Counted from the stretch's first letter, positions 13,575 to 45,900 are shown. The stretch: 64,000 nt of DNA from Microbacterium thalassium (GCF_014208045.1 NZ_JACHML010000001.1:1054001-1118000), one strand, 5' to 3'. The notes: generated by a model not told the origin, from the sequence alone. Made by a program: numbers and translations.

Positions 13575-14537
13575 CTACGGCGCGGGAGCCTCGGCGGCGC
13601 GCGCGGCGTCGGCGGTCGCCTGGACCTCGGCGGCCGCTTCGGCGAAGATGCCGCGCATCCATGCGTGCTCGGGGTCGCGTTCGTGCACCGGATGCCACCA
13701 CAGTGCGTTCGCCGTCGGCGCGGCGTCGAAGGGTGGCTCGAGAACACGCAGACCGCCGTTGCGGGCGATCATCGGCGCGATCGCCGACTGCACGATCCCC
13801 AGGCGCCGAGTGCCGGTCACGAAGTGCCCGAGTGACATGAAGCTCTCGACGACGACCTCGACGCGAGGCTCGATGCCCATCAGCTGCAGCTGCCGGCTGG
13901 CGGAGGTGAACGCCGATCGCGACCGGTAGGTGAACACCCAGGGCGACTCCGACAGCAGGTCCATCGTGAGGCCGTCGGCGACAGCGTCGTTGTCCTCGTC
14001 CGCCACGATCACCCAGCGGTCCCGCCACAGATCCTGGAACGGAAGGTCGGTGAGGTAACCGTGCGGGATCACCATGGCATCCACCGAACGCAGGCTCGTG
14101 GCGGCGTCGTCGACGATGGGGGTGGTGTGGAGCATGAAGCGGAATCGGACGTCGGGGGCGACCCGTGCGGCGATGCGGGAGACCGCGGCGCCGACCGTGG
14201 CGAATCCGTAGTCGGAGCCGTACACCGAGAACTCCCGCGTCGAGTCGGACGGCGTCCACGTGGCCTGGCTCTCGAAGACCCGCCGCGCCGCGTCGAGGGC
14301 GATCGCCGTGTGCTCGGTCAGCCGGACCGCGAGCGGAGTGAGTTCGTAGGTGTTGCCGCGGCGGGCGAGGATCGGGTCGTTGAAGTGCGTGCGAAGTCGC
14401 GCGAGCGATGCGCTGAGCGCGGGCTGGCTCAGGTGCAGTCGCTCGGCCGCGCGTGTGACGCTGCGCTCCGTCAGCAGGGCGTCGAGCGAGACGAGCAGGT
14501 TCAGGTCGAGTCGCGACAGGGGATTATTGGCGGTCAC
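13575..14537 (-). CDS. LysR family regulator, NodD/NahR type
   Basis: A 320-aa LysR regulator divergent from the seven-gene ring-cleavage operon, whose activator it probably is. The N-terminus (LDLNLLVSLDALLTERSVT, then LHLSQPALSASLARLR) reads like NodD and NahR, the branch that senses flavonoids or aromatic acids. The GTG at 14537 is used because it places LDLNLL at residue 9 as in that branch. The substrate-binding domain follows from about residue 95. An alanine-rich C-terminal tail is probably disordered. The effector is inferred to be a phenolic or flavonoid ring compound. Confidence 0.88.
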   Translation of the reverse strand: MTANNPLSRLDLNLLVSLDALLTERSVTRAAERLHLSQPALSASLARLRTHFNDPILARRGNTYELTPLAVRLTEHTAIALDAARRVFESQATWTPSDSTREFSVYGSDYGFATVGAAVSRIAARVAPDVRFRFMLHTTPIVDDAATSLRSVDAMVIPHGYLTDLPFQDLWRDRWVIVADEDNDAVADGLTMDLLSESPWVFTYRSRSAFTSASRQLQLMGIEPRVEVVVESFMSLGHFVTGTRRLGIVQSAIAPMIARNGGLRVLEPPFDAAPTANALWWHPVHERDPEHAWMRGIFAEAAAEVQATADAARAAEAPAP

Positions 14538-14740
14538 GTCGTCGTGATCCTTCCGCGGTGTTTCGTCGTCGGATGCGCTGTCCAGCCCAACTATAGATCA
14601 TGTGGATGCGCGGAATAGACGGAATCCGGTTCCCTTATGTACAGCGGCGATCGCAGGATGGTGTCACCACGAACGACAGCGTCGCGATGCCGCGGCCCTG
14701 TCGGGAGCACCACCGCCGTACGCGGCAGAAGGACACATCG

Positions 14741-15709
14741 ATGACGACGTCTCACGGACCCGCCGCCCCTTTCGCGCTCGCTCGCTACCGCGAGGGTGCC
14801 GAGGTGCGCCTCGGGCTGGTCGCCGGCGACCGCATCCGGCCTCTCGATGCCGACGCGCTCGGCGCGCCGACGCTCAACGACTTCCTCGCCGCGCCCGACT
14901 GGGATCGCCTGGCCGCGCTCGCCGCAGAAGCGGACGACTCGTGGCTCCCGCTCGCCGAGGTCGTCCTGACCGCTCCCGTCGAGCCTCGCCAGGTGCTGCA
15001 AGCCGGAGCGAACTATCGCGAGCACGTCATCGAGCTCGTCGCCGCAGGGCTGACGAACAACACCGACCGGACGCCCGAAGAGGCACGAGCATTCGCGGCG
15101 AACCTCATGGACGAGCGCAAGAAGAACGGCGAGCCGTACTTCTTCATCGGCCTGCCGGCGGCGGTCGTCGGCGACGACGTGCCGCTCGTGCTGCCCTCGT
15201 ACAGCGACGTCCACGACTGGGAGCTCGAGCTTGCGATCGTCATTGGCCGCGAGGCGTTCCGGGTCTCGCGCGAGGACGCGATGGACCACGTCGCGGGCTA
15301 CACGATCGTTAACGACATCACGACGCGCGATCTGGTCTTCCGCAAGGACATGAAGGAGATCGGCACCGACTGGTACCGCTCGAAGAACGCGCCGGGATTC
15401 CTTCCGACCGGGCCCTTCCTGGTCCCCGCTGCGCACGTCGACGGCGGCCACCTCGCCGTCGCGCTCGACCTGAACGGCGACCGCATGCAGAACGGCAACA
15501 CCGACGACCTGCTGTTCGACATCCCGGCGCTGATTTCGGCGGCGTCCCAGAACATGCCCTTGCTGCCAGGCGACCTGCTGCTGACCGGGAGCCCTCCCGG
15601 CAACGGTCAGCACTGGAAGCGATTCCTGCGCGACGGCGACGTCATGACCGGCTCGATCGAGGGACTGGGCACGCAGATCGTGCGCTGCGTCGCGGAGGAC
15701 GCCTCGTGA
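14741..15709 (+). CDS. Fumarylacetoacetate hydrolase family protein
   Basis: A 322-aa FAH-superfamily enzyme, first gene of the operon. These Mg-dependent enzymes cleave C-C bonds of acylpyruvates or hydrate/isomerise ring-cleavage products. Visible marks are GANYREHV near residue 88, WELELAIVIG with the metal-binding glutamates, YTIVNDITTRDL and LLTGSPPG. AGAAGGA precedes the ATG at 14741; in-frame upstream codons lack homology. It carries an insertion around residues 105-130 (ERKKNGEPYFFIG). Its GTGA overlap with the next gene implies coupling. The exact substrate is unknown. Confidence 0.85.
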   Translation: MTTSHGPAAPFALARYREGAEVRLGLVAGDRIRPLDADALGAPTLNDFLAAPDWDRLAALAAEADDSWLPLAEVVLTAPVEPRQVLQAGANYREHVIELVAAGLTNNTDRTPEEARAFAANLMDERKKNGEPYFFIGLPAAVVGDDVPLVLPSYSDVHDWELELAIVIGREAFRVSREDAMDHVAGYTIVNDITTRDLVFRKDMKEIGTDWYRSKNAPGFLPTGPFLVPAAHVDGGHLAVALDLNGDRMQNGNTDDLLFDIPALISAASQNMPLLPGDLLLTGSPPGNGQHWKRFLRDGDVMTGSIEGLGTQIVRCVAEDAS

Positions 15710-16698
15710 CCGCGCCCTCGGAGAACCCCGCCGACCTCGACCGGCAGAACCCCGAGGCCGAGATTGCCGCGCGCGCAGAGGCCTTCCGCAACTGGGGTCG
15801 CTGGGGCGAGGACGACGTGCTGGGCACGCTGAACTTCATCGACCCGGCCAGGCGCGTCGAGGCCGCCGGCCTCGTGCGCGCGGGCCGGGTCGTCTCGCTC
15901 GCGCAGGCGTTCGACACCGACGGTCCGCAGAAGGGCTGGCGCCGCCGCACCAACCCGGTCCACACCATGACCGACACGGGGACGGATGCCGAGCGCGGCG
16001 CCCAGGGCTTCCCCCACGGCATCGGCGGCGCGGACGACGTCATCGCGATGCCGCTTCAGTGCTCGACCCAGTGGGACGGCCTCGGCCACATCTTCGACCA
16101 CGGCATGGCGTGGAACGGCCGCCGGGCAGGAGACGTCGTCACCAGCGACGGCGACCTGGTCACCGGCATCGAGCACGCGGCATCCGTCATCGTCTCGCGG
16201 GGCGTGCTGCTCGACGTCGGGCGTCACCTGAGCCCTGCGACCGGTGAGCTCGAGGACGGGTATGCCATCACCGTCGCCGACCTCGAGGCGACCGCGTCGG
16301 CGCAGGGCGTCGAGGTCGGCCGCGGCGACATCGTGCTCGTGCGCACCGGGCAGTATGCGCGCACCCGCCGCGACGGCTGGGGCGACTACGCCGGGGGGCC
16401 CGCCCCGGGCCTGTCGCTGACGACGGCCGGGTGGCTTCATCGCACCGAGATCGCCGCGATCGCGACCGACACGTGGGGGTTCGAGGTCCGTCCGAACGAG
16501 TTCGACGCGCCCTCGTTCCAGCCGCTGCACCAGGTGGTGATCCCGAACATGGGGCTCACCATCGGCGAGATGTGGAACCTCGACGAGCTTGCCCGCGCGT
16601 GCGCCGAGTCCGGGCGGTACGCCTTCCTCCTGTCGGCCGCGCCGCTGCCGATCACCGGCGCGGTCGGCTCGCCGATCAACCCCGTCGCCATCCTCTAG
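15706..16698 (+). CDS. Cyclase family protein (PF04199, kynurenine formamidase-like fold)
   Basis: A 330-aa metal-dependent hydrolase of the cyclase/KynB family, starting with GTG in a GTGA overlap with the upstream FAH gene. The metal-binding region reads QWDGLGHIFDHG (about residue 122) instead of the HxGTHxDxPxH of true kynurenine formamidases, which is the longer QWD-type subfamily found in catabolic operons. It may hydrolyse a lactone, formyl or enol-ester intermediate after ring cleavage. LVRTGQYAR and ITGAVGSPINP are other conserved stretches. The role is inferred from context. Confidence 0.82.
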   Translation: MTAPSENPADLDRQNPEAEIAARAEAFRNWGRWGEDDVLGTLNFIDPARRVEAAGLVRAGRVVSLAQAFDTDGPQKGWRRRTNPVHTMTDTGTDAERGAQGFPHGIGGADDVIAMPLQCSTQWDGLGHIFDHGMAWNGRRAGDVVTSDGDLVTGIEHAASVIVSRGVLLDVGRHLSPATGELEDGYAITVADLEATASAQGVEVGRGDIVLVRTGQYARTRRDGWGDYAGGPAPGLSLTTAGWLHRTEIAAIATDTWGFEVRPNEFDAPSFQPLHQVVIPNMGLTIGEMWNLDELARACAESGRYAFLLSAAPLPITGAVGSPINPVAIL

Positions 16699-16737
16699 AC
16701 AACCCGAGACACCCGCAGGAACAGAGAGGTTCTTCCC

Positions 16738-17871
16738 ATGACCGCAGTGAACAAGGTCGCGATCGCCGGATCCGGCGTCGCGGGCCTCGCCGCCGGCATC
16801 CAGCTCGCCAAGGCGGGCGTCGCCGTCGATCTCTTCGAGGCGCAGCCCGAGCTCAGCGCCCTCGGCTCGGGCATCTCGCTGCAGGGCAACGCCCTGCGCG
16901 CCTTCGACACGCTCGGCGCGTGGGACGAGATCAAGGCCGCCGGGTACCCCTTCGAGGGGCTGAACCTGCGTGCGCCCGGACCGGACGCCCCGATCGTCGC
17001 CGAGCTGCCCGACGTCAAGACCGGCGGCCCCGACTACCCCGCGGCGATGGGCATGCCGCGCCCCGACCTCGCCCGCATCCTCTTCGCGCATGCGGAGAAG
17101 GCCGGCGTGAACGCCACGTTCGGCGCGAAGGTCACCGGCCTCGAGCAGAGCGGCGACGCCGTCGAGGTTTTCGTGAACGGCGCGTCCGCCGGCACCTACG
17201 ATCTGGTCATCGGCGCCGACGGCCTGAACTCGACCGTGCGCGACCTGATCGGCATCGAGACCAAGCCCGAGCCCGTGGGCATGGGCATCTGGCGCACCTT
17301 CGTGTCGCGGCCCGCCGAGGTCGTCCGCAGCGAGCTGTACTACGGCGGCCCGGTCTACATCGCCGGATACACACCGACCGGCGAGGGCTCGATGTACGCG
17401 TTCCTCGTCGAGAAGGCGCAGGACCGCGTCGGCGTCAGCGACGAGGAGGCCACGCGCATCATGCTCGAGGAGTCCCGCGCGTACCACGGCCCGTGGGACG
17501 CGATCCGCGCCGACCTCGCGGCCGGCGCGCACGCGAACTACACGTGGTTCACCAAGCACGTCGTCGCCGAGCCCTGGAACCGCGGTCGCGTCGTGATCAT
17601 CGGCGACGCGGCCCACAGCTGCCCGCCGACGATCGCGCAGGGTGCGGCCCAGGGACTCGAGGACGCGCTCGTCCTCACCGAGCTGCTCACCGGCGGCGAA
17701 CAGGTCGACCAGGGTCTGTGGGATGCCTTCCACGCCCGGCGCCTGCCGCGGGCGACCGCGGTCGTCGAGGCCTCGGTGCAGCTGGCGCAGTGGCAGATCG
17801 ACGGCGACCGGGACGCCGACGCCGGCGGCCTGATCTTCGGGATCGCGCAGAAGATGGCGCAGCCGGCATGA
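16738..17871 (+). CDS. FAD-dependent aromatic monooxygenase
   Basis: A 377-aa single-component flavin hydroxylase, group A. The FAD-binding GSGVAGLAAG is at residues 10-20, the DG motif appears as GADGLNSTVRD and the GD motif as IIGDAAHSCPPTIAQGAAQ. It resembles salicylate and 3-hydroxybenzoate 6-hydroxylases. It probably hydroxylates the ring that the downstream extradiol dioxygenase then opens, using NAD(P)H and O2. It begins 39 nt after the cyclase gene with AGAGAGG before the ATG and ends in an ATGA overlap with the amidohydrolase gene. Confidence 0.87.
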   Translation: MTAVNKVAIAGSGVAGLAAGIQLAKAGVAVDLFEAQPELSALGSGISLQGNALRAFDTLGAWDEIKAAGYPFEGLNLRAPGPDAPIVAELPDVKTGGPDYPAAMGMPRPDLARILFAHAEKAGVNATFGAKVTGLEQSGDAVEVFVNGASAGTYDLVIGADGLNSTVRDLIGIETKPEPVGMGIWRTFVSRPAEVVRSELYYGGPVYIAGYTPTGEGSMYAFLVEKAQDRVGVSDEEATRIMLEESRAYHGPWDAIRADLAAGAHANYTWFTKHVVAEPWNRGRVVIIGDAAHSCPPTIAQGAAQGLEDALVLTELLTGGEQVDQGLWDAFHARRLPRATAVVEASVQLAQWQIDGDRDADAGGLIFGIAQKMAQPA

Positions 17872-18872
17872 CCACCGACGTCCACGCGCACCTGCTGATG
17901 CCGGGACTCCACGCCGAGGTCGAGCGTCGCGCCCCGGAGCTCGTCGCCGAGGCGGCGGCGCTCGAGCTGCGACGCAACGGCGCGGCGAGCCAGGCGGTGT
18001 CGGGCCCGATGGTCGGGTCGCGCATCCCGAAGCTCACCGACGTCAGGGTGCGACTGGCCGACATGGAACGGCAGGGGGTGGACCGACAGTGGGTCTCGGC
18101 GTCGCCGAACCACTTCTACCCGTGGGCGCCCGAGGACCTCGCGGTGTGGGTCGCGGCCGAGTCCAACCGGCTGGTGGCCGCGCATGTCGCGCAGGCGCCG
18201 GGTCGGCTGGTCGGTCTCGGCGTCGTGCCGCTGCAGCATCCGCAGCGCATCGTCGAAGCCCTCGACGACGCGGTGCTCGGGCAAGGCCTCGCCGGAGTCG
18301 AGATCTCGTCGTTCGCCGGCGACGTCGAACTGTCGGACGTGCGTCTCGAGCCGTTCTGGGAGCGCGCCGAACAGCTCGGCGCCGTCATCTTCCTGCACCC
18401 GTTCGGCTGCAGCCTCGACGAGCGCCTCGATCGCTTCTACCTCGCCAACACCGTGGGGCAGCCGGTCGAGAACGCCGTCGCCCTGTCGCACCTCATCTTC
18501 TCGGGCGTCCTCGACAGGTACCCCGGGCTGAAGATCGTCGCGGCGCACGGCGGCGGATACCTGCCGACGGCGATCGGGCGATCCGACCACGCGTGGCGCG
18601 TGCGCCCGGACGCGCAGAAGTGCGCCCACGAGCCGTCGTGGTACCTCCGGAAGATCTGGTTCGACACCGTCATCCACGATCCGGCCGTGCTGCGCCACCT
18701 GCTCGCGACCGTCGGCTCGACCCAGGTCGTGCTCGGCAGCGACTACCCGTTCGACATGGGTTCGACCGACCCCGTCGCGTTCGTGAAGTCGGCGGGACTG
18801 ACCGCCGACGTCGAGCGCCGCATCCTCTCGGCCAACGCCGACGCCCTGGTGACGGTGGGAGTGCAGGCATGA
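17868..18872 (+). CDS. Amidohydrolase 2 family protein (ACMSD/resorcylate decarboxylase type)
   Basis: A 334-aa TIM-barrel metal enzyme. The metal site is DVHAHL at the N-terminus, IFLHPFG in the middle, VAAHGGGYLP and GSDYPFDMG near the C-terminus. This is the pattern of ACMSD and the gamma-resorcylate / 2,6-dihydroxybenzoate decarboxylases, which remove CO2 from ring or ring-derived acids without redox. Start and stop both lie in ATGA overlaps, so it is firmly inside the operon. It may decarboxylate a polyhydroxybenzoate (for example 2,4,6-trihydroxybenzoate) or an open-ring product; sequence alone does not decide. Confidence 0.85.
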   Translation: MTTDVHAHLLMPGLHAEVERRAPELVAEAAALELRRNGAASQAVSGPMVGSRIPKLTDVRVRLADMERQGVDRQWVSASPNHFYPWAPEDLAVWVAAESNRLVAAHVAQAPGRLVGLGVVPLQHPQRIVEALDDAVLGQGLAGVEISSFAGDVELSDVRLEPFWERAEQLGAVIFLHPFGCSLDERLDRFYLANTVGQPVENAVALSHLIFSGVLDRYPGLKIVAAHGGGYLPTAIGRSDHAWRVRPDAQKCAHEPSWYLRKIWFDTVIHDPAVLRHLLATVGSTQVVLGSDYPFDMGSTDPVAFVKSAGLTADVERRILSANADALVTVGVQA

Positions 18873-19900
18873 GGCTCGCGCGCTGGAAGCACTCCGACGG
18901 GACGATCGGCGAGGGTTTCGTCGAGGACGAGCGGGTGATCCCCTTCCCTCACGCGAAGACGGTCGCCGACGTTCTCTCGGACGGGCTCGGAGCGGCGCAG
19001 GCGCTTCATGCGGCTGCGCTCGCTGAGGCTCCGACGGGCTCGCCGCTCGCCGACGTCACCCTCCTCGCGCCGCTCGTACCCGCCTCGGTCCGCGACTTCG
19101 TCACGTTCGAAGAGCACGTCGAGGGAGTCAGCGCGGGCGTCGAGGGCAAGAGCCACGTCGCCAATGAGTGGTACGAGTACCCCACGTTCTACTTCACCAA
19201 TCCGCACACGATCCTCGGGCCCGGTGAACCGGTGTCGCCGCCGGTCACCGAGCGCCTCGACTTCGAGCTCGAACTCGCCGCTGTCGTCGGCGGCGTGTCC
19301 GGCTCCGACGGTGTGAACCTCACGCCCGAGCAGGCGGCATCCCACATCTTCGGGTACACGATCATGAACGACTGGTCGGCCCGCGACCTGCAGGGCCGCG
19401 AGATGAAGGTGCGCCTGGGCCCGGCCAAGGGCAAGGACTTCGGCACCTCGCTCGGGCCGTGGATCGTCACGGCCGACGAGCTGGAGCCCGCCATCGACGC
19501 CGACGGCTTCCTCGCCGTGCGCGGCGAGGTGCGCGTCAACGGCGAGCTCATCGGCGAGGACCTGTTCGCGAACATGGGCTGGCCGTTCCCGGTGCTGGTC
19601 GCCTACGCGTCACGCAACGCGGTCGTCAAGCCGGGCGACGTGCTCGGCTCGGGCACCATCGGCAACGGCGGCTGCCTCGGCGAGCTGTGGGGGCGCAACG
19701 GCGCTCTCACCCCGCCGCCCCTGAAGGAGGGCGACGAGGTCGCCATGACCGTCCACGGCGTCGGCGAGCTCGTCGCGCGCGTCGGCGCCTGCGTCCCCGC
19801 GCCGGATCTTCCGCCCGCGTCGCCCCGGCCGCGCCTCCGGCACACCCCGAATGAATCCGCCGCGCCCGCCGCGGCATCCGCACAGAAAGAAGGTCGATGA
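18869..19900 (+). CDS. Fumarylacetoacetate hydrolase family protein
   Basis: A 343-aa FAH-family enzyme nearer to true fumarylacetoacetases than the first gene of the operon: it has FVTFEEHVEG, EYPTFYFTNP, FELELAAVVG, YTIMNDWSARDLQ, FGTSLGPWIV and GSGTIGNGGCLGELW in the family order. The last 40 residues are a Pro/Ala-rich tail beyond the fold. It would hydrolyse a C-C bond of a diketo acid such as a ring-fission product. It overlaps both neighbours by ATGA. Confidence 0.86.
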   Translation: MRLARWKHSDGTIGEGFVEDERVIPFPHAKTVADVLSDGLGAAQALHAAALAEAPTGSPLADVTLLAPLVPASVRDFVTFEEHVEGVSAGVEGKSHVANEWYEYPTFYFTNPHTILGPGEPVSPPVTERLDFELELAAVVGGVSGSDGVNLTPEQAASHIFGYTIMNDWSARDLQGREMKVRLGPAKGKDFGTSLGPWIVTADELEPAIDADGFLAVRGEVRVNGELIGEDLFANMGWPFPVLVAYASRNAVVKPGDVLGSGTIGNGGCLGELWGRNGALTPPPLKEGDEVAMTVHGVGELVARVGACVPAPDLPPASPRPRLRHTPNESAAPAAASAQKEGR

Positions 19901-20835
19901 TGACGAAGCGACTCGTCGCTCATCTGCGCTACGCCGCTCTCGCGGTTCCCAACTTCGAGGAGGAGCGCGACTTCTTCACGAACTACTGGGGCCTCACCGA
20001 GGTCCACGCCGAAGAGGGCGTCAGCTACCTGGCCGCCGAGGGTTCCACCGAGCCGTTCATCCTGCGCCTGCGCGATGACGAGAAGCGGATCGACCTGGTC
20101 GGGTTCGCGGTCGACGGCCGCGACGACTTGCAGGCGCTCGCCGACAAGCTCCACACCGAGGGCGTGCAGTTCGTGCACGAGCCGCAGGAGCTCACCGGCT
20201 TCGGCGGGGGGTACGGCTTCCGCGTGTTCGACGGCGACGGTCGCGTGCTGGAGTTCTCGACCGGCTACCAGACCCGCACCGCGCGCAAGATCCGCGAGCG
20301 CGAGCCGATCCCCGCGAAGCTCTCGCACGTCGTGTTCAACTCGGCCAACCTCAACGACACGGCTCAGTGGTACGTCGACCACCTCGACTTCTCGATCTCG
20401 GACTCGCTCATCCGGCCCGACGGCGGCGAGATGATGCACTTCATGCGATGCAACCCGAACCACCACTCGGTAGCGGTCGCGATGGGCCCCCACCACTCGC
20501 TGCACCACCTGTCGTTCGAGATGCGCGGCATCGAGGAGTGGATGCGCGGCGCCGGCAAGATCCTGCGCTCGGGCGCCCGCATGATCTGGGGCCCCGGTCG
20601 CCACAACGCCGGTGACAACACGTTCGCGTACTTCCTCAGCCCCGCAGGGAACACGATCGAGTACACCACCGAGCTGTCGGTGCTCGACGAGGAGAACTGG
20701 GAGCCGCACCGCCTCGACATCTCGCAGCTGTCGAGCCAGGACCAGTGGGGCACCGCGCAGGCGATGAGCGAGATCATCGCGCGCGAGTCCTTCAACGACA
20801 TTGACAAGGGCCTGTTCGTCGCGCCCCCGGCGTGA
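19897..20835 (+). CDS. Type I extradiol ring-cleavage dioxygenase (VOC fold)
   Basis: A 312-aa two-domain vicinal-oxygen-chelate dioxygenase, the BphC/catechol 2,3-dioxygenase layout. The three iron ligands are visible in the C-terminal domain: His144 in KLSHVVF, His204 in LHHLSFE and Glu255 in GNTIEYTTE, at positions matching the 146/210/260 ligands of BphC. GRHNAGDNTFAYF before the glutamate fits the extradiol signature closely. It opens a catechol-type ring next to the hydroxyls with O2 and Fe(II). Start ATGATG overlaps the upstream stop. In the pathway it would act right after the FAD hydroxylase. Confidence 0.88.
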   Translation: MMTKRLVAHLRYAALAVPNFEEERDFFTNYWGLTEVHAEEGVSYLAAEGSTEPFILRLRDDEKRIDLVGFAVDGRDDLQALADKLHTEGVQFVHEPQELTGFGGGYGFRVFDGDGRVLEFSTGYQTRTARKIREREPIPAKLSHVVFNSANLNDTAQWYVDHLDFSISDSLIRPDGGEMMHFMRCNPNHHSVAVAMGPHHSLHHLSFEMRGIEEWMRGAGKILRSGARMIWGPGRHNAGDNTFAYFLSPAGNTIEYTTELSVLDEENWEPHRLDISQLSSQDQWGTAQAMSEIIARESFNDIDKGLFVAPPA

Positions 20836-20867
20836 CCGGCGTGGACGTCTCAGCGAGGAGAGAAGAC

Positions 20868-28850: not shown

Positions 28851-28867
28851 GTTAGGCGCAGACTAAC
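28851..28867. promoter_or_regulatory. LysR-type box upstream of the ABC importer
   Basis: GTTAG-N7-CTAAC, a perfect dyad that contains the LysR T-N11-A motif. The same TTAG-N7-CTAA pattern, with a shared AGACTAA right side, occurs at 35372-35388 over the promoter of the LysR gene that ends this transporter region. This points to control of the importer by that LysR protein. Confidence 0.6.
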
Positions 28868-30556: not shown

Positions 30557-30562
30557 TCCGAG

Positions 30563-30594
30563 CCCGGGGCGCCGGCCACCGCCGGCGCCCCGGG
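30563..30594 (+). terminator. Strong hairpin between binding-protein and permease genes
   Basis: CCCGGGGCGCCGGC and GCCGGCGCCCCGGG form a perfect 14-bp all-GC stem with a CACC loop, 6 nt after the binding-protein stop and 16 nt before the permease start. Without a T-run it more likely protects the upstream mRNA and attenuates downstream expression than ends all transcription. Confidence 0.65.
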
Positions 30595-30610
30595 TGAAGG
30601 GGCACTTCCC

Positions 30611-35371: not shown

Positions 35372-35388
35372 ATTAGCCTGAGACTAAT
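35372..35388. promoter_or_regulatory. LysR-type box over the LysR promoter
   Basis: ATTAG-N7-CTAAT, a perfect 5-bp dyad with T-N11-A geometry, 10 nt upstream of the LysR start and overlapping its -10 (TAATAT on the minus strand, 35370-35375). It is nearly the same as the box at 28851-28867. Confidence 0.65.
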
Positions 35389-39618: not shown

Positions 39619-39634
39619 GAACGCGGGCGGTGCA

Positions 39635-40072
39635 TCAGCCCGGCCGACGTCGCTCCGCGAGCTGGCGCTCGATGCGCTCGAGTGTTGCGATGAGCGTGTC
39701 CCGCGTCCCGTCGTCGAGGATCCCGTCGAGCATCGCGCTCCACGTCGCATCGAGGCGATCGAGGTTCGCCGCGGCGCGCTCGGTGGGGTGGAGCCTGATC
39801 GAACGGGCATCGTGCTCGTCGTGCTCGCGACGGATGAACCCCTTGGCCTCGAGGCTGCGCAGGGCACGACTGAAGTTGCTGGGCTGCAGCAGCGTCGCCG
39901 CCGCGGCCGCGCCCGCGGTCGTGCCGGGATTGCGGTCGACGTAGCGCAGCACCGTGGTCTCGAGAGGCGTCGGCCCCGCTGCGGCCCCATCGTCGTACAG
40001 GCTCAGCTGGCGCGACACCGCCAGGATCAGGTCGGCCAGGGAGAAGAGCGGCGACATCCTTGTGTGCTCCAT
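39635..40072 (-). CDS. MarR family transcriptional regulator
   Basis: A 145-aa winged-helix regulator: AAAAATLLQPSNFSRALRSLEAKGFIRREHDEHDARSI is, in pieces, the recognition helix followed by the wing with its conserved D-x-R. The ATG at 40072 is preferred; the frame stays open upstream into the AT-rich gap but without conservation. It is divergent from a Bcr/CflA-type exporter and probably represses it through the TCGTT-N8-AACGA dyad between them. Phenolic compounds are common MarR effectors, which would suit the setting. Confidence 0.85.
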   Translation of the reverse strand: MEHTRMSPLFSLADLILAVSRQLSLYDDGAAAGPTPLETTVLRYVDRNPGTTAGAAAAATLLQPSNFSRALRSLEAKGFIRREHDEHDARSIRLHPTERAAANLDRLDATWSAMLDGILDDGTRDTLIATLERIERQLAERRRPG

Positions 40073-40092
40073 GGAACGATCGTATATCCTTG

Positions 40093-40110: not shown

Positions 40111-40125
40111 ATGATAAAAATATAT

Positions 40126-41418
40126 ATGACCGACGTGACGCCACGATCCGGAATCCCACCCCTGCTGCTCGTGGTGCTGGCTCTGCTGGCGAGCGTTGCG
40201 CCGTTCTCCACCGACCTGTATCTGCCGGCGTTCCCCCTGATGGCCGCAGACCTCGACACGTCGGCGACCGCCATCCAGCTCACCCTCACGAGCTTCCTGG
40301 TGGGCCTCGCCATCGGACAGCTCGTCTTCGGTCCGCTGTCGGACCGCCTCGGGCGTCGCGGTCCGCTTCTGGTGGGAGCGGTCCTCTTCGCCGCCGCGAG
40401 CGTCGCCGCCGTGTTCGCGCCCTCGATCGAGTTCCTGATCGCGGCGCGGTTCCTGCAGGGGCTGAGCGGTGCGGCCGGGATGGTGCTGGGTCGTGCGGTG
40501 ATCGCAGACCGCGAGCGCGGGGATGCCGCCGCCCGTGCGTTCAGCCTCATGATGATTGTGGGCGGGATCGCGCCGATCATCGCCCCGCTGGCGGGAAGCC
40601 TCGTCGTCGACGTCCTCGGCTGGCGCGGGATCCTGGCCGTCCTCGCCGCACTCGCCGTCGCGATGCTGCTCGCATCCTGGTTCGTCGTCGAGGAGTCCCT
40701 TCCCCGCGAGCGCCGCGGCCGGGGAGCCGCCGGCGGGTTCCGCGCCCTCGGATCGCTTGGCTACGCGGGTCCGGCTGCGACCTTCGTTCTCGGTTTCGCG
40801 GCGATGATGGCTTACATCTCGGCGTCGCCGTTCCTGTACCAGGAGGTCATGGGACTGGACGCGGTCGTCTACGGCGTCCTGTTCGGCGTCAACGCGCTCG
40901 GTCTCGCCGCGGCCAGCGCCCTGGCGACCCGGCTGCTGCGCACGATCCCGGCGCGCGGCGTCCTCGGGATGGGCGTTGCGGGCCTCATCGGCGCGACCGG
41001 CGTGCTGTTCGTCCTGTCCGTGTCCGGCGCGCCCGCCGGCTGGATGGCCGTCCCGATCTTCGTCGCGGTCTCTTCGCTCGGCTTCGTGATGGGCCCGGCA
41101 ACCGCTCTCGCGCTGGCGGCTGTCCCGACCGCGGTCGGAACGGGCTCGGCCGTGCTCGGCGCGGGTCAGTTCGGGCTCGGGGCGCTCGTGTCGCCCCTCG
41201 TGAGCCTCGAGGTTGGGAACGCGACGCTGCCGCTCGCGATCGTGATGCTCGTTCTCGCGCTGCTCGCGGGGGCCGCGCACCTGGCCGGACGAGCTGCCTC
41301 GCCTCAGGCGGCGGAGAAGGCGGCAGGTGCGGATGCGGCGGACTCGGGGGCGAACCGGCACGTGAAAGTGTGCGTGCCGGATGCCACCTCGATGGGAGCC
41401 GAGCCGTCGGGCAGCTGA
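40126..41418 (+). CDS. MFS exporter, Bcr/CflA family
   Basis: A 430-aa drug/metabolite exporter with 12 membrane segments. The first helix ends in APFSTDLYLPAFP, diagnostic for Bcr/CflA, and loop 2-3 has GPLSDRLGRRGP (motif A). The ATG at 40126 is chosen over 40111 because it gives the normal short N-terminus. The last 38 residues are hydrophilic, unlike the family, and are encoded by DNA that is also the 3' end of the convergent rhamnosidase gene, giving a 115-bp tail-to-tail overlap. It probably exports toxic phenolics under MarR control. Confidence 0.87.
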   Translation: MTDVTPRSGIPPLLLVVLALLASVAPFSTDLYLPAFPLMAADLDTSATAIQLTLTSFLVGLAIGQLVFGPLSDRLGRRGPLLVGAVLFAAASVAAVFAPSIEFLIAARFLQGLSGAAGMVLGRAVIADRERGDAAARAFSLMMIVGGIAPIIAPLAGSLVVDVLGWRGILAVLAALAVAMLLASWFVVEESLPRERRGRGAAGGFRALGSLGYAGPAATFVLGFAAMMAYISASPFLYQEVMGLDAVVYGVLFGVNALGLAAASALATRLLRTIPARGVLGMGVAGLIGATGVLFVLSVSGAPAGWMAVPIFVAVSSLGFVMGPATALALAAVPTAVGTGSAVLGAGQFGLGALVSPLVSLEVGNATLPLAIVMLVLALLAGAAHLAGRAASPQAAEKAAGADAADSGANRHVKVCVPDATSMGAEPSGS

Positions 41419-43934
41419 ACGGTCGCCTCGGTCGACGGCGGCACGACGACCTCGAGCGCGAAGTCCTCGCCGTCGAGCGTCCACGACACGGCGGCGCGGC
41501 CGTACGGCGTCTCGTGCGAGGCGCGCGCCCACGTCAGCTCGGGCGTCGGCACCGGCGCGATGCGCAGGCGACGGTACCCGGGGGCATCCGGGGCGAGGCC
41601 TGCGACCCGGCGGTGCAGGAAGTCCGCGATCGCGCCGAAAGCGTAGTGGTTGAACGAGGTCATCTCGCCCGGGTTGATCGAGCCGTCGGGGAGCATGGAG
41701 TTCCAGCGCTCCCAGATCGTCGTCGCTCCCATCGTCACGGCGTACAGCCAGGAGGGGCACTCCTGCTGCAGCAGCAGGCGCCACGCGGTCGCGGCATGGC
41801 CGGTGTCGGCCAGCGCGTCGCACACGACGGGGGTGCCGAGGAAGCCCGAGCCGACGTGGAAGCCGTCGGCAGCCACCTGGTCGGCCAGCAGGGAGCCTGC
41901 GTGCTGGCGCTGGTCGGGCAGCAGGAGGTCGAACGCAATGCCGAGTGCATACGCGGTCTGTGACGGGAACGCCGCGCGGCCGGACGGTGTGACGTACTCG
42001 GTGCGGAAGCGCGTCGCGGCTCGGTCGAACAGGCCGTCGTACCTCGCTGCGGCGGACTCGTCGCCCAGCAGCAGGGCGGTGTCGCGCACGATGCGCGCCG
42101 AGCGTGCGAGGTACGCCGTCGCCACCGCCTGCCACGGCAGTCGCGCCGCCCACGGCTGGTCGTCGGGTGCGGCCGAGTCGAGCCAGTCGCCGAACGAGAA
42201 GCCGCCGCCCGGGAAGTCGATCTCGTCGCCGGCGCGCGCAGCGAAGAAGTCGGTCCACGAAGTCATCGACGCCCACTGGCGGCGGAGGATGCCGACATCG
42301 CCGTACCGCTCGTACAGCGTCCAGGGCACGACGGTGGCGGCGTCGCCCCAGCCCGCCTCGGCGCCGAGCGGCGGCAGGTGCGGGTCGACCTCGGCCCACG
42401 GGACGTACACCGGCACATTGCCCTCGGCGGTCTGGTCGGCGGCGAGGTCGGCGAGCCAGCCGGTGAGCATCCCCGACGTGTCGTAGAGGAACGAGGCGGT
42501 CGGCGCGAAGACCTGCAGGTCGCCGGTCCAGCCGAGTCGTTCGTCTCGCTGCGGGCAGTCGGTCGGGACGTCGAGGAAGTTGCCCCGCATCCCCCACACG
42601 ACGTTCTCGTGCAGGCGCGTGAGCAGGGGATCGGATGCCTCGAACGCGCCGAGCCGGCGCATGTCGGTGTGGACGACGACGGCTTCGAGGTCGTCGAGCG
42701 TGAGCTCTCCGGGCCACCCCTCGACCTCGGCGTAGCGGAAGCCGTGGAAGGTGAACGCCGGCTCCCACGTGAAGGCCCCGCCCGCGATGACCACCTCGTC
42801 GGTCGCCTTCGCGCGGCGCAGCGGGCGGGTCCCGAGTTCGCCGTCCTCGAGGACCTCGGCGTGGCGCAGCGTGATCGTCGTCCCCGGTTCGCCCGCGGGG
42901 ACCCGCACGCGCAGGCGTCCCACGAGGTTCTGACCGAAGTCGACGAGCGTGCGCCCCGCCGGCGACGTCGTGATCGCGACAGGGCGCACCGACGCGGTTC
43001 GCCGCACGGCGGGACCATCGGGTGCGACGACCGTGGCGGGGTCGAGGTCGACGACCGACACGGGTCGCCATGCCGAGTCGTCGAAGCCGGGCTCGCTCCA
43101 GCCTGCGACGGCGCGGCGGGCGTCGAACGTCTCGCCCATGTACAGGTCCGCGCGGGTCACCGGGCCGGGCGCCCAGCGCCACGTGCCGTCGGTGCCGAAC
43201 ACGGCGAGCGAGCCGTCCTCATGCTCGACCTCGAGCTGCACGAGCGCGGCGGTGCGGTCGCCGTATGTGTCGCGCAGCCCGCCGAAGCCGAGGAAACCGC
43301 GATACCAGCCGTCGGCCAGGTGGACGCCGAGGGCGTTGACGCCCTCGCGCACCTGATCCGTGACGTCCCACGTGCGGTAGCGCAGGCGGTTCACGTAGCT
43401 CGTCCAGCCCGGGTGCAGCACGTCTTCGCCGACGGTCTCCCCGTTGAGGTGCAAGGTCATGACGCCGTGGGCGGTGGCCCGGATGCGGGCGCGACGGATG
43501 CCGCTGCCCAGCGTCGCCTCGCCGCGCAACAGCATCGCCGGCTCGCCGTCGTCGCCGGGGGCGGGCAGTCCGGGTGCGACCAGCGATGCGGTCCAGAGCG
43601 CGGGATCGGTCAGCCCCGTCTCGAGGGCGGTCGGGTCACTCCACGCGCTCGCGGCATCGTCCGGGCCCCACACACGTACTCGCACCGATCGCCGCGCGCG
43701 GCTGGGCAGGGCTTCGACCGGCCAGTCGACGAGGACCTGCGCGTCCGAGTCGACTCGCCCGCTGGTGAACGTCTCGGTGCCGGCCTCCGGGACCGAGACC
43801 TCGATCTCATAGGCGCGTTGACGCCACCCGGCTTCGTCGGTGTCCACGACCCAGGACAGGCGGGGGTGGCTCTCGCCGATGCCGAGGGGCTCGCGATGGT
43901 GCTCGATCGTGACAGGGCGGACGGCTGCGGTCAT
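41304..43934 (-). CDS. GH78 alpha-L-rhamnosidase (second copy)
   Basis: An 876-aa GH78 enzyme, only distantly similar to the one at 36898. Domains follow the same order. The acid motif is DCPQRDERLGWTGD (Asp459 to Glu465), one residue longer than in the other copy, and the base is Glu742 in TTIWERWNS. It is cytoplasmic, with no signal peptide. It lies 27 nt after the TetR gene on the same strand, so both are one transcript divergent from the GH1 gene. The two rhamnosidases may prefer different linkages (for example alpha-1,6 versus alpha-1,2). Confidence 0.92.
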   Translation of the reverse strand: MTAAVRPVTIEHHREPLGIGESHPRLSWVVDTDEAGWRQRAYEIEVSVPEAGTETFTSGRVDSDAQVLVDWPVEALPSRARRSVRVRVWGPDDAASAWSDPTALETGLTDPALWTASLVAPGLPAPGDDGEPAMLLRGEATLGSGIRRARIRATAHGVMTLHLNGETVGEDVLHPGWTSYVNRLRYRTWDVTDQVREGVNALGVHLADGWYRGFLGFGGLRDTYGDRTAALVQLEVEHEDGSLAVFGTDGTWRWAPGPVTRADLYMGETFDARRAVAGWSEPGFDDSAWRPVSVVDLDPATVVAPDGPAVRRTASVRPVAITTSPAGRTLVDFGQNLVGRLRVRVPAGEPGTTITLRHAEVLEDGELGTRPLRRAKATDEVVIAGGAFTWEPAFTFHGFRYAEVEGWPGELTLDDLEAVVVHTDMRRLGAFEASDPLLTRLHENVVWGMRGNFLDVPTDCPQRDERLGWTGDLQVFAPTASFLYDTSGMLTGWLADLAADQTAEGNVPVYVPWAEVDPHLPPLGAEAGWGDAATVVPWTLYERYGDVGILRRQWASMTSWTDFFAARAGDEIDFPGGGFSFGDWLDSAAPDDQPWAARLPWQAVATAYLARSARIVRDTALLLGDESAAARYDGLFDRAATRFRTEYVTPSGRAAFPSQTAYALGIAFDLLLPDQRQHAGSLLADQVAADGFHVGSGFLGTPVVCDALADTGHAATAWRLLLQQECPSWLYAVTMGATTIWERWNSMLPDGSINPGEMTSFNHYAFGAIADFLHRRVAGLAPDAPGYRRLRIAPVPTPELTWARASHETPYGRAAVSWTLDGEDFALEVVVPPSTEATVQLPDGSAPIEVASGTHTFTCRFAPESAASAPAAFSAA

Positions 43935-43961
43935 GGTGTCCTCAGGGAGGGTGCGGGTGGA

Positions 43962-44552
43962 TCAGATGGGGTCGACGAGGAAGCCGTTGATGTGGCGGCG
44001 GCTGTCTTCGGCCATGTCGACGTCGAGGTCGTCGAGCCAGAGGAGCCCCAGCCCCTCGATGATGGCGAGGGTGCTCAGCGCGGCCGCGCGCGGAGAGACC
44101 CCTTCGAGCAGTCCGCCGTCGGCGCCGACTTCTTGGAAGGCGGCCGTGACGGCATCGGCGATGCGGTGGAAGCGCTCGGCGAAGTACGGGCGCGCGGGGT
44201 GTTCGGGGTCCGTCGCCTCGGCGGCCAGGATCGAGTACAGCTGAACGACACCGCGCTGGTCAGCCTGCGTGCGCGAGATCTCGACGAGGCCGGCGAGGAA
44301 GTCGCGGCCGTGGAGGTCTTCGAGGCTGTGCTCGGCGCGCGCGTCGCGGCGCTCGAGGACCGCGCGCAGCAGCGCCATCTTTCCGCCCGAGAAGTGGTGG
44401 AGCACACCGGTCTGCGTCATGCCGACGGCCTTGGCGATCTCGTTGACGGAGCTCGCGGAATAGCCGCTCTTCGCGAACACCGCGAAGGCTGCGTCGAGGA
44501 TCTGCTCGCGCCGCTCTGCGCTCTTGCGGTACTCGCCTCTGGGTCCGGCCAT
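43962..44552 (-). CDS. TetR family transcriptional regulator
   Basis: A 196-aa TetR repressor: N-terminal helix-turn-helix (REQILDAAFAVFAKSG, SSVNEIAKAVGMTQTGVLHHF) and a helical ligand domain. The ATG at 44552 fits a leaderless start, with TACGCT 6 nt upstream; a possible start 12 codons further up falls into the operator. It is divergent from a GH1 beta-glucosidase and co-directional with a GH78 rhamnosidase, and very likely represses both through the perfect dyad at 44577-44602. The ligand may be an aglycone or glycoside. Confidence 0.87.
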   Translation of the reverse strand: MAGPRGEYRKSAERREQILDAAFAVFAKSGYSASSVNEIAKAVGMTQTGVLHHFSGGKMALLRAVLERRDARAEHSLEDLHGRDFLAGLVEISRTQADQRGVVQLYSILAAEATDPEHPARPYFAERFHRIADAVTAAFQEVGADGGLLEGVSPRAAALSTLAIIEGLGLLWLDDLDVDMAEDSRRHINGFLVDPI

Positions 44553-44558
44553 CGCCTC

Positions 44559-44612
44559 AGCGTATGTCGCCCAGATGAAAATATGCAAGCCTCAATATTT
44601 TCGTGCTAGCGT
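44559..44612. promoter_or_regulatory. Divergent TetR/GH1 promoter with perfect operator
   Basis: GAAAATAT-N10-ATATTTTC at 44577-44602 is a perfect 8-bp dyad. It lies between a minus-strand -10 (TACGCT, 44559-44564) for TetR and a plus-strand -10 (TAGCGT, 44607-44612) for the GH1 gene, covering both -35 regions. The GH1 transcript then has a leader of roughly 45 nt. Confidence 0.7.
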
Positions 44613-44664
44613 GTCCCCCGTCCTCAGGAGGGGGCACGTTCGAAGACGATCGAGGACGGATGCC

Positions 44665-45900
44665 ATGACCAACACATTCCCCGACGACTTCCTCTGGGGA
44701 GTCGCCGTCGCCGGGCACCAGAACGAGGGCGGCAACGCCGACAGCGACATCTGGTTCCTCGAGAACGTCGAGCCGAGCCTGTTCATGGAGCGGTCCGGCG
44801 ACGCATGCCGCGCCTACGACCTGTGGCCGGATGACCTCGACCGCGTCGCGGGCCTCGGGCTGAATGCCTTCCGCTTCTCCGTCGAGTGGGCCCGCATCGA
44901 GCCCGCTCGGGGTGAGGTCTCTCAGGAGGCGCTCGACCACTATGAGCAGGTCGTGGACGGATGCCTCGAACGCGGTCTCGCCCCGATCGTGACGTTCAGC
45001 CACTTCGCGGCTCCGCACTGGTTCGCCGCATCCGCCTCGTGGCTGGCCGCAGACGCCCCGCAGCTGTTCGCCGACCAGTGCGATCGGGTGATGGCGCGTA
45101 TCGGCGATCGGATCGCCGCCGGGGTCACGCTCAACGAGCCGAACCTCGAGCAGCTGCTGCAGGACAAGCTCCCGCCGCACGTCGAGCAGATCAAGCTCGA
45201 CATGCTGGCGGCCGCCGCACGGGCGGCCGGCAGCGAGAGCTACTACGCCGCGAACGTCATCCCCGCGAGCGCGCAGGTGGAGTTCCGGGATGCGTTCACG
45301 GTGGTGCACCGCACCGCGAAGGCCGCCATCAAGGCGCGGCGCGCCGACCTGTCGGTCGGCGTCTCGATCGCCATCAGCGACGAGGTCGCCCTCCCCGGCG
45401 GCGAGGATCGCCGCGATGAGCGACGCGCGCGCGTCTACGACCACTGGCTCGAGGTCGCGCGCGACGATGACTTCATCGGCGTGCAGAACTACGAGCGCAC
45501 CTACCACGGCCCCGACGGCGAGGTCATCCCCGAAGGGGAGCGCAACGGCATGGGCACGGTCATCGAGCCCGGCTCGCTCGCCGGCGCTGTCCACTACGCG
45601 CACGAGAAGTCCGGGGTGCCGGTCTTCGTCACCGAGCACGGCCTGCAGAGCCCCGACGACGCCCAGCGGGCCGCGTTCATCCCGGCTGCCCTCGACCTGC
45701 TCGCCGACGAGATCGCGTCGGGCACGCCGGTGCTGGGGTACTGCCACTGGACGCTCATGGACAACTTCGAGTGGATCTTCGGGTACGGCCCCAAGCTTGG
45801 ATTGTTCGAGGTCGACCGCGAGGCGATGGTGCGAACCGCCAAGCCGAGTGCGGGGGCGTACGCGGAGTATGTCCGAGCGCAGGCCAGCGTGCGGAGCTGA
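44665..45900 (+). CDS. GH1 beta-glucosidase
   Basis: A 411-aa glycoside hydrolase family 1 enzyme. FLWGVAVAGHQNEG at the N-terminus is the family opening, the acid/base is Glu158 in TLNEPN and the nucleophile Glu324 in VTEHGLQ, where His replaces the usual Asn after the glutamate. YCHWTLMDNFEW is the sugar-binding loop. It is cytoplasmic. GAGGACGG precedes the ATG. With the rhamnosidases it would remove the glucose left on a flavonoid after de-rhamnosylation. Length is slightly short of the 440-480 usual for the family. Confidence 0.9.
   Translation: MTNTFPDDFLWGVAVAGHQNEGGNADSDIWFLENVEPSLFMERSGDACRAYDLWPDDLDRVAGLGLNAFRFSVEWARIEPARGEVSQEALDHYEQVVDGCLERGLAPIVTFSHFAAPHWFAASASWLAADAPQLFADQCDRVMARIGDRIAAGVTLNEPNLEQLLQDKLPPHVEQIKLDMLAAAARAAGSESYYAANVIPASAQVEFRDAFTVVHRTAKAAIKARRADLSVGVSIAISDEVALPGGEDRRDERRARVYDHWLEVARDDDFIGVQNYERTYHGPDGEVIPEGERNGMGTVIEPGSLAGAVHYAHEKSGVPVFVTEHGLQSPDDAQRAAFIPAALDLLADEIASGTPVLGYCHWTLMDNFEWIFGYGPKLGLFEVDREAMVRTAKPSAGAYAEYVRAQASVRS

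Follow-up and report, generated by a model that had tools for sequence, protein, structure and literature searches.

Here we analyse a putative flavonoid-utilisation region in a 64,000-nucleotide stretch of the Microbacterium thalassium genome (GCF_014208045.1, NZ_JACHML010000001.1:1054001-1118000, or C1:1054001-1118000; hereafter the window), a genome assembled as a single 3.70 Mb contig. The 32 kb between positions 13,575 and 45,900 is two units rather than one locus: Unit I (23.9-45.9 kb), with a quercetinase-like cupin, glycosidases and an importer, and Unit II (14.8-21.4 kb), an operon with an extradiol dioxygenase. The cluster is very probably a system for taking up and breaking down plant flavonols that carry sugars, rutin for example. 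Our preferred reading, to which we assign a probability of about 0.68, is that Unit I forms a flavonol-glycoside catabolic core, that the IclR-CMD-SDR-SDR-FAH-FAH block within it (hereafter the block) serves as the A-ring route, and that Unit II is a separate ring-opening module.

Gene limits were taken from a codon-usage caller and start positions are approximate. Protein families were assigned with Pfam, and NCBIfam models with their cut-offs and PDB sequence comparison were used further. The protein families, key residues, co-inheritance, synteny, a recurring palindrome and the presence of RhaI and LigAB were established directly. Scans of the window for tRNA and Rfam families gave no match.

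Genes of Unit I (families by Pfam unless another source is given; genome samples are defined below):
23902-24690, minus strand: IclR regulator; homologs of about 49-84% identity adjoin the block elsewhere
24745-25302, minus strand: CMD-family protein, cysteine-free, candidate decarboxylase (PF02627, 29.6 bits against a cut-off of 23)
25404-26162, plus strand: SDR 1
26191-26976, plus strand: SDR 2, at 72-92% in 7 family genomes one of the best-conserved proteins
27011-27886, plus strand: FAH 1 (FAA_hydrolase), found in 9/299 family genomes and 80 named loci
27883-28716, plus strand: FAH 2 (FAA_hydrolase)
29021-34415, plus strand: Opp/Dpp-type ABC importer (binding protein, permease, permease-ATPase fusion, ATPase), in 6/8 other cupin genomes
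34436-35362, minus strand: LysR regulator divergent from the cupin gene
35544-36086, plus strand: monocupin, predicted QueD/YxaG-type quercetinase (Cupin_2; PDB QueD 5fli E 3.6e-28, YxaG E 1.8e-33)
36089-36862, plus strand: alpha/beta-hydrolase, candidate depside esterase (BD-FAE E 1.8e-48)
36898-39618, plus strand: GH78 alpha-L-rhamnosidase, with no signal peptide by eye
39635-40057, minus strand: MarR regulator
40171-41418, plus strand: Bcr/CflA-type MFS exporter (TIGR00710 above cut-off)
41304-43934, minus strand: second GH78 alpha-L-rhamnosidase
43962-44552, minus strand: TetR regulator
44665-45900, plus strand: GH1 beta-glucosidase (NEP at 157, TEHG at 323; below the TIGR03356 cut-off)

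A sequence-only reading had taken the whole 32 kb for a complete rutin-type utilisation locus. Pfam finds every enzyme family that it named, and its flavonol unit is borne out; the single route that it drew from uptake to central metabolism, and the A-ring role that it gave to the operon of Unit II, are not supported as written. RhaI lies outside the window, and protocatechuate would most likely be degraded through a LigAB cluster about 0.33 Mb away. The four FAH enzymes, treated there as one set, divide into two in the fde-like operon of Unit II and two in the co-inherited block. Missing from its list of parts, yet important, are the IclR regulator, the CMD protein, the two SDRs, a PF04199 cyclase, an RpiB-like protein, a sulfatase and the second LysR.

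Unit I encodes a predicted flavonol-glycoside front end

The sequence match and the metal-ligand set together suggest that 35544-36086 encodes a QueD-type monocupin quercetinase. At E 0.001 or better, the cupin matches six distinct PDB sequences, every one a quercetin 2,3-dioxygenase (QueD or YxaG). Quercetinases bind their metal through three histidines and one glutamate; H70, H72, E77 and H116 of the window protein align with these positions in QueD, and each is kept in at least 97% of 26 sequences (M. thalassium included). As the sequence-only reading had noted, an esterase gene begins 2 nt past the cupin stop codon; it is of the BD-FAE type, and we assign its catalytic triad to S117, D201 and H233, each kept in at least 97% of 43 sequences.

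Both GH78 proteins carry the six-hairpin catalytic, N-terminal, C-terminal and Ig domains, with all five Pfam models above cut-off. Inspection by eye revealed no signal peptide in the GH78, GH1 or esterase proteins, while the binding protein of the importer starts with a lipobox-like stretch. These features suggest that the glycosides are imported whole.

The block is co-inherited with the cupin

To assess co-inheritance, we drew 299 genomes evenly from the same family (Microbacteriaceae, M. thalassium included) and searched them with the Unit II dioxygenase (E 1e-40), the cupin (E 1e-20) and FAH 1 (E 1e-70), which were found in 14, 9 and 9 genomes, respectively. Cupin and FAH 1 were common to 8 genomes; leaving M. 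thalassium aside, each occurred in 8 of 298 genomes, with 7 in common (P = 1.7e-12). Cupin and dioxygenase were both present in M. thalassium alone, a separation that is not significant by itself, since only 0.35 common genomes would be expected.

The surroundings of the cupin were read for up to 40 kb in the 8 other family genomes that carry it. The esterase gene follows the cupin gene in 8/8. A LysR of the same kind lies within 40 kb in 8/8, adjoining the cupin in most and about 4 kb off in G178. IclR, CMD, SDR, SDR, FAH and FAH are present in 7/8. GH78 occurs in 6/8 (not in G042 or G073), at 38-39% identity only in G016 and G292; a GH1 of the same kind occurs in 5/8, with a weaker one in two more, and a pca operon shares the same 40 kb in 4/8. 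The dioxygenase is found in none of the eight stretches. In the family sample, Unit II and the block are inherited separately.

These counts bear on the sequence-only reading in two ways. Its grouping of quercetinase-like cupin, esterase, GH78, GH1 and importer holds as a conserved, co-inherited unit. It had also assigned the A-ring to the operon at 14741-21386; the dioxygenase of that operon is missing from 8/8 other family cupin genomes, 7/8 of which have the SDR/FAH block. Taken alone, this separation is weak evidence, given the chance expectation and the presence of the dioxygenase in 2/12 cupin genomes reached through named loci (G300 and G339). It had named a lack of co-inheritance among the parts as the finding that would speak against it; in the family sample such a lack is found for 14741-21386 and clearly not for the cupin, the block and GH78.

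We further examined FAH 1 beyond the family. An alignment scan of genomes gave 197 relatives, of which 80 make up the FAH 1 loci analysed here, a set skewed to close relatives. By record title, all 80 are actinobacterial apart from two, whose labels read Stenotrophomonas and Acidobacteria; the Acidobacteria record is G066, a genome of the same family. Within a 10 kb flank, a limit that overlooks genes further out or across broken contigs, the 81-locus set (80 distinct loci, L068 being the same contig as L090) places FAH 2 near FAH 1 in 78 loci, SDR 2 in 75, CMD in 69, SDR 1 in 65 and IclR in 60. Less constant neighbours are an esterase like 36089-36862 (44), the cupin (25), Amidohydro_1 family proteins (22), CoA-transferase subunits (10) and carotenoid-oxygenase family proteins (7). 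The cupin lies within 10 kb of FAH 1 in 25/80 loci, 19 of these 25 also having GH78; in all, GH78 is that close in 24/80 loci, only 5 of the 55 cupin-free loci among them. A few records recur between our sets (G313 = G016 = L106; L094 = G143; L109 = G292; L068 = L090, from G066).

For 45 of the 80 loci, picked for genus spread, the corresponding genomes were tested for the cupin and the Unit II dioxygenase. The cupin is present in 12 and the dioxygenase in 28, and only G300 and G339 have the two together. Genomes of 8-12 Mb are frequent among the 45, which makes a chance presence of the dioxygenase likelier.

Several block loci have their own peculiarities. The locus titled Stenotrophomonas maltophilia P13 (L085) holds a Microbacterium-type block (FAH 1 87%) with PobA and IclR homologs and is probably a contaminating contig in that assembly. 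In eight loci (L095-L099, L101, L105 and L116) an NMT1-type ABC importer sits between SDR 2 and FAH 1, and in L068/L090 it comes after SDR 2; another transporter seems to serve the block there. In Streptomyces scabiei 87.22 (L146, 6372-7907) the block adjoins a lignostilbene-dioxygenase-like protein, a P450 and aldehyde dehydrogenases. The carotenoid-oxygenase family protein of S. scabiei reaches 509.9 bits with the lignostilbene-dioxygenase model, below the cut-off of 800, and this arrangement suggests a stilbene front end to the same block.

H72, E75, E118, E120, D149 and K169 of FAH 1 are each kept in at least 97% of 81 sequences, and a His-x-x-Glu pair together with a Glu/Glu/Asp set is conserved in both FAHs of the block. 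In the light of FAH enzymology, these residues are in keeping with C-C bond hydrolases. The CMD protein has no CxxC motif in any of 67 aligned sequences, unlike AhpD-type peroxidases, which carry it.

Probable B-ring and rhamnose routes lie elsewhere in the genome

One gene with a likely role in B-ring degradation lies in the window outside both units:
5970-7163, minus strand: 4-hydroxybenzoate 3-monooxygenase PobA (PRK08243 480.1 bits against a cut-off of 351; TIGR02360 371, below 538.7)

A LigAB/LigK cluster is found at C1:724-729 kb, about 0.33 Mb from the window. The LigAB fusion scores 872.4 with PRK13372 (cut-off 837) and LigK 409.4 (cut-off 304.5). The neighbouring LigI-like and LigC-like proteins match models of other names only, below cut-off, and the first amidohydrolase has no match at E 1e-15; LigJ, LigI and LigC are tentatively assigned from gene order and sequence. 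A second LigB match in the genome reaches 149 bits. Among six genomes tested for LigB, scores are near 300 bits in M. thalassium, G299 and G301 and 97 in G199, with none in G300 or G066.

Most other cupin genomes carry a different marker. A strong PF00775 match (at least 188.9 bits) is present in 8/8 other family cupin genomes. A further PF00775 test covered 24 genomes and included 11 of the 12 named-locus cupin genomes (one being G016 again; G339 was left out), 9 of which gave a strong match, the exceptions being Demequina genomes G299 and G301. Taking both tests together, 16 of 18 distinct cupin genomes other than M. thalassium have such a match, and the two without it, both Demequina, have LigB at about 300 bits. 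In G199, pcaG and pcaH exceed their NCBIfam cut-offs, with pcaB, pcaF and pcaC below or just below theirs. M. thalassium itself has no clear PcaGH: its PF00775 match (frame L067) is partial (positions 3-97) and, at 33.6 bits, above the Pfam cut-off of 27.3 and far under the 186-201 bits of PcaH-type matches.

The same search speaks to the A-ring. Among the family genomes other than M. thalassium, seven have both cupin and block, and in all seven PF00775 matches only an adjacent PcaH/PcaG pair, and there is therefore no hydroxyquinol dioxygenase of this family competing for the A-ring. This elimination of rival oxygenases is partial and PF00775-based. For rhamnose, RhaI is above cut-off in M. 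thalassium and in 8 of 9 other genomes tested, these eight having both block and cupin and the exception being G066 (block, no cupin); the block is thus not needed for rhamnose.

A palindrome recurs in LysR-cupin intergenic regions

Two copies of a palindrome flank the importer operon and the LysR gene:
35373-35387, plus strand: TTAGCC-N3-GGCTAA, likely LysR operator, 1 mismatch to consensus
28852-28866, plus strand: weaker second copy, TTAGGCGCAGACTAA, 2 mismatches, just upstream of the importer operon

A palindrome near TTAGCC-N3-GGCTAA is present in most of 18 LysR-cupin intergenic regions (that of M. thalassium and 17 others). With at most one mismatch, it occurs 15 times across 1.9 Mb of sequence from relatives and each time precedes a gene for a homolog of LysR 34436-35362; the fifteenth is in L070, whose stretch stops short of the cupin. 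Of 1003 genes that lack a match to the window at 40% identity, none has it upstream. The window holds three matches at two mismatches or fewer, compared to 0.26 expected, and the third, at 8003, is probably a chance match.

Unit II resembles fde/ifc-type operons

Genes of Unit II and its divergent regulator:
13575-14537, minus strand: LysR regulator facing away from Unit II; BsrA and LeuO lead its NCBIfam matches, none of which reaches its cut-off
14804-15709, plus strand: FAH-family hydrolase 1 (PF01557 E 8.5e-58)
15706-16698, plus strand: PF04199 cyclase-family hydrolase (sole PDB match at E 0.01 is 5ibz, uncharacterised, E 9.9e-59)
16738-17871, plus strand: FAD monooxygenase, candidate A-ring hydroxylase (PF01494, FAD_binding_3; NF005313 389.8 bits against a cut-off of 372, a family without assigned function)
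17868-18872, plus strand: ACMSD-like Amidohydro_2 protein, candidate decarboxylase (PDB 4ign, an ACMSD, E 2.7e-49; best gamma-resorcylate decarboxylase 9.4e-18)
18869-19900, plus strand: FAH-family hydrolase 2 (PF01557 E 1.2e-46)
19900-20835, plus strand: glyoxalase-type type I extradiol dioxygenase (PF00903; PDB 3b59 E 1.6e-59), in 14/299 family genomes
20868-21386, plus strand: RpiB/LacAB-like isomerase (PF02502); 68-81% homologs accompany the dioxygenase in G036, G041 and G300

This gene set recurs well outside the family. LysR, FAH, cyclase, monooxygenase, amidohydrolase, dioxygenase and second FAH occur together in S. scabiei, S. cellulosae (with its LysR in L148), S. cylindrosporus and Streptomyces sp. 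NBC_00568, and likewise in Actinomadura montaniterrae and Microtetraspora glauca. In these genomes the dioxygenase gene lies ahead of the second FAH gene, unlike in the window; the LysR homolog is divergent from the operon in S. scabiei, S. cylindrosporus, NBC_00568, Actinomadura and Microtetraspora. Microbacterium sp. Marseille-Q6648 (G300) has the seven operon genes at 73-86% identity in the order of the window, with the LysR homolog about 16 kb off. The regions of G336 and G339 hold a partial set or another order only. A plasmid search with the dioxygenase returned 70 records, the best at 56% identity; one with FAH 1 of the block gave no match at E 1e-50.

Unit II, whole or partial, is near the block in 9 of the 45 block genomes. 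In S. scabiei, S. cellulosae, S. cylindrosporus, NBC_00568 and G300, block FAH 1 and the dioxygenase share one contig at distances of about 10 to 47 kb, compared to 6 kb here. In four Acidimicrobiia loci from metagenome-assembled genomes, homologs of LysR (43-44%), monooxygenase (51%) and dioxygenase (53-54%) form one run with SDR 2, FAH, CMD and FAH 1; the remaining Unit II genes were not detected in these four loci. One such run (L136, 1362-2411) includes a Rieske/VanA_C protein, and fde has a Rieske partner too. We had considered Unit II an unrelated neighbour of Unit I and dropped this view, since Unit II is near the block in other taxa, which keeps a functional link likely. A role as substitute for the missing PcaGH was also rejected: G300 has both, and M. 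thalassium has LigAB.

Nine of the 13 other family dioxygenase genomes (L006-L009 and L011-L015, at 64-67% identity) are only 1.3-2.0 Mb in size, and five are incomplete (77-88%); it is surprising to find an fde-like cluster retained in genomes of this size.

Proposed pathway and alternative readings

In the pathway that we propose, in which every substrate and the order of reactions are predicted from sequence, the ABC system would take up rhamnosyl-glucosyl flavonols intact, and cytoplasmic GH78 and GH1 enzymes would strip rhamnose and glucose. The monocupin would then open the C-ring of quercetin or kaempferol to give CO and a depside, which the esterase would cut to protocatechuate or 4-hydroxybenzoate plus 2,4,6-trihydroxybenzoate. 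Rhamnose would enter via RhaI, and the B-ring acid would pass through PobA (converting the 4-hydroxybenzoate of kaempferol to protocatechuate) to the LigAB cluster outside the window. The co-inherited CMD-SDR-SDR-FAH-FAH block would most likely take up the A-ring acid as its substrate. Unit II would carry out hydroxylation, extradiol cleavage and FAH hydrolysis of an acylpyruvate to pyruvate, either on flavonoids closed to quercetinase or as an oxidative alternative for the same A-ring. The divergent LysR would govern the cupin-esterase pair, and perhaps the importer, through TTAGCC-N3-GGCTAA.

A number of observations weigh against this reading. GH1 and all four FAHs fall under every NCBIfam cut-off that they match. 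The importer is not found in the 40 kb read around the cupin in G178 and G073, Demequina loci match it at 29-37% only, and in G073 the cupin, esterase and LysR are present but no block. The palindrome, at one mismatch or fewer, is present in only 14 of 33 cupin loci (30 distinct), leaving 19 without it, and at two mismatches or fewer it precedes the importer in only 2 of 9 importer-bearing relatives (G199 and G042) besides M. thalassium. The dioxygenase is carried by two cupin genomes, G300 and G339. Of the 45 block genomes tested, 33 have no cupin at E 1e-15, which implies that the substrate of the block is not only flavonol-derived; G066 carries the block with neither cupin nor RhaI above cut-off. 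Phloroglucinol reductase (PGR) is not among the 60 best of 636 and 656 PDB matches of the two SDRs.

How the block might act on the A-ring can be outlined tentatively. Co-inheritance, the partial elimination of oxygenases and the counting of steps lead us to consider that the block could be an as yet unrecognised pathway, widespread among actinobacteria, in which phloroglucinol-type rings are broken down with no ring-cleaving oxygenase. We hold this proposal as speculative and rather unlikely. A cofactor-free CMD-type decarboxylase would convert 2,4,6-trihydroxybenzoate to phloroglucinol, one SDR would reduce this to dihydrophloroglucinol, and one FAH would hydrolyse this cyclic 1,3-diketone in a retro-Claisen ring opening. 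The remaining SDR would reoxidise 3-hydroxy-5-oxohexanoate to triacetate, which the second FAH would split into acetoacetate and acetate. The CoA-transferases near the block support this route less than we had at first judged: six of the ten are in cupin loci with pca-type genes (L071, L073, L074, L080, L106 and L109), two are one contig, and in L134 they are on the Unit II side.

For Unit II, the best-surviving alternative, compatible with our preferred reading and given slightly less than an even chance, is that of an actinobacterial operon of the fde/ifc type whose enzymes would attack the A-ring while the flavonoid is still intact, on compounds without a 3-hydroxyl group (flavones, flavanones and isoflavones), by 8-hydroxylation, extradiol cleavage, hydrolysis of the acylpyruvate arm and decarboxylation. 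According to the available parts of three reports (PMC11069340, PMC11303751, PMC10799723), fde and ifc have the same kinds of key enzymes and a divergent LysR. The likeness to FdeE, FdeC, IfcA and IfcB was judged by family and layout, and Pfam finds no Rieske protein or cupin among the Unit II genes, so that ifc-type cupins (IfcD) and a Rieske FdeD-like partner are lacking; a Ring_hydroxyl_A search of the M. thalassium genome gave two matches, both far from the window. In terms of general chemistry, extradiol cleavage of the C8-C8a bond in an 8-hydroxylated A-ring would yield a product with an acylpyruvate arm. Two FAH acylpyruvase-type enzymes would suit such a product, releasing pyruvate and an acid, the latter a possible substrate for decarboxylation by the ACMSD-like protein.

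The assignment of the A-ring acid to Unit II, with the SDR/FAH block doing something else, we consider unlikely. Here the amidohydrolase would turn 2,4,6-trihydroxybenzoate into phloroglucinol, the monooxygenase would form 1,2,3,5-tetrahydroxybenzene, and extradiol opening followed by the FAHs would lead to pyruvate. The enzyme logic fits, the operon shares a contig with the block in four Streptomyces and in G300 (there also with the cupin), and the monooxygenase and dioxygenase homologs run into the block in the four Acidimicrobiia loci. Against it stand the absence of the dioxygenase from the other family cupin genomes, not significant alone, and an amidohydrolase far nearer to ACMSD than to gamma-resorcylate decarboxylase.

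It is improbable that the cupin is another small cupin, such as an isomerase or a dioxygenase of another substrate (e.g. the ifc pyranone cupins). The QueD match is moderate (E 3.6e-28) and neither of its two NCBIfam matches is a quercetinase model; however, all six distinct PDB matches are quercetin 2,3-dioxygenases, the metal ligands and C-terminal region align with QueD, and the esterase is constant, GH78 frequent and protocatechuate genes are partners.

LRA1, LRA5 and LRA6 belong to the SDR and FAH families. A non-phosphorylating L-rhamnose (LRA) route in the block for the GH78-released sugar is largely refuted and very improbable: the LRA6 and LRA1 models do match, but at 162.6/185.6 bits against a cut-off of 500 and 156.9/144.5 against 400, the block has no lactonase or dehydratase, RhaI is above cut-off in M. 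thalassium and eight others (G066 having the block without it), and no GH78 lies within 10 kb in 50 of 55 block loci without the cupin.

Neighbouring features

Two further genes form a possible sulfatase system:
21458-23806, minus strand: accessory sulfatase with a CSPTR formylglycine motif; 65% homolog beside the cluster in 1/8 other cupin genomes (G091)
48418-49410, minus strand: FGE-type sulfatase-activating enzyme (PF03781), 25 kb from the sulfatase

Acidimicrobiia block loci also hold a distant sulfatase (25-27%). Flavonoid sulfates are possible further substrates. At 49453-52113 (minus strand) and 52166-53284 (plus strand), an FGGY kinase, a xylose-isomerase-like TIM barrel and a ROK regulator have the look of a xylose operon and adjoin a GH3 gene at 53338-55683. 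The two MFS/POT transporters at 58089-61131 (minus strand) have 71-81% homologs downstream of GH78 in Microbacterium block loci L079, L083, L084 and L086 and are perhaps part of an extended locus. A weak match to a nonribosomal peptide synthetase condensation domain (PF00668, 33.7 bits) is found at 61241-62551 (minus strand).

Significance and comparison with known systems

To our knowledge, the aerobic bacterial fate of the phloroglucinol-type A-ring after flavonol C-ring cleavage is poorly described; known A-ring routes are fde/ifc, where the A-ring is opened first, and an anaerobic reductive path. A search of the open-access literature by title or abstract start found no quercetinase-GH78-SDR/FAH locus and no aerobic FAH-based phloroglucinol route. 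The locus names a small set of five enzymes tied by co-inheritance to quercetinase and present in dozens of actinobacterial genomes. Its layout suggests that one locus may combine two points of attack on the flavonoid skeleton. This is relevant to the ways in which actinobacteria of soil and plants exploit plant exudates and render them harmless.

The window cupin resembles QueD of Streptomyces sp. FLA and YxaG of Bacillus subtilis in its domain, its 3-His-1-Glu set and, at 180 aa compared to the 186-residue QueD chain, its length; it differs in the esterase gene directly behind it and in its linkage to GH78, GH1, an importer and the SDR/FAH block. Of the two protocatechuate pathways, a pca 3,4-cleavage operon lies near the cluster in 4/8 other cupin genomes, M. 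thalassium being without clear PcaGH, and for lig 4,5-cleavage it has LigAB and LigK above cut-off. The LRA pathway is alike in its SDR and FAH families; its cut-offs are missed and RhaI is present instead.

In the available parts of the published accounts, the fde/ifc pathways use an FAD monooxygenase to 8-hydroxylate the A-ring (with a Rieske partner, FdeD, in fde) and a glyoxalase-type enzyme to open the ring (PMC11069340, PMC11303751, PMC10799723, PMC8552027), and fdeR, a LysR gene, is divergent from fdeA (PMC10799723). Compared by family and layout, Unit II has in common with fde of Herbaspirillum seropedicae and ifc of Variovorax the FAD monooxygenase, the glyoxalase-type dioxygenase and the divergent LysR; unlike them it has two FAHs, a PF04199 cyclase and an ACMSD-like amidohydrolase, and it is actinobacterial.

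The reductive phloroglucinol route of Clostridium scatologenes, as far as the available part of its description goes, consists of PGR (an SDR), DPGC (of the cyclase family), TfD and TAL (PMC10470551). The block is like it in the number and kind of steps, with two NAD(P)-dependent redox enzymes and two C-C cleaving enzymes. It differs in having FAHs in place of a cyclase-family DPGC and a BKACE-type TAL, neither of which Pfam finds in the block (the PF04199 protein is in Unit II only), and in its extra CMD protein and aerobic hosts. If the oxygenase-free proposal is true, the block would represent an aerobic counterpart, reached by convergence, of the clostridial PGR-DPGC-TfD-TAL route, with front ends that vary from quercetinase (Microbacteriaceae and Demequina) to a lignostilbene-dioxygenase-like protein (Streptomyces) and an fde-like hydroxylase/dioxygenase pair (Acidimicrobiia and this window).

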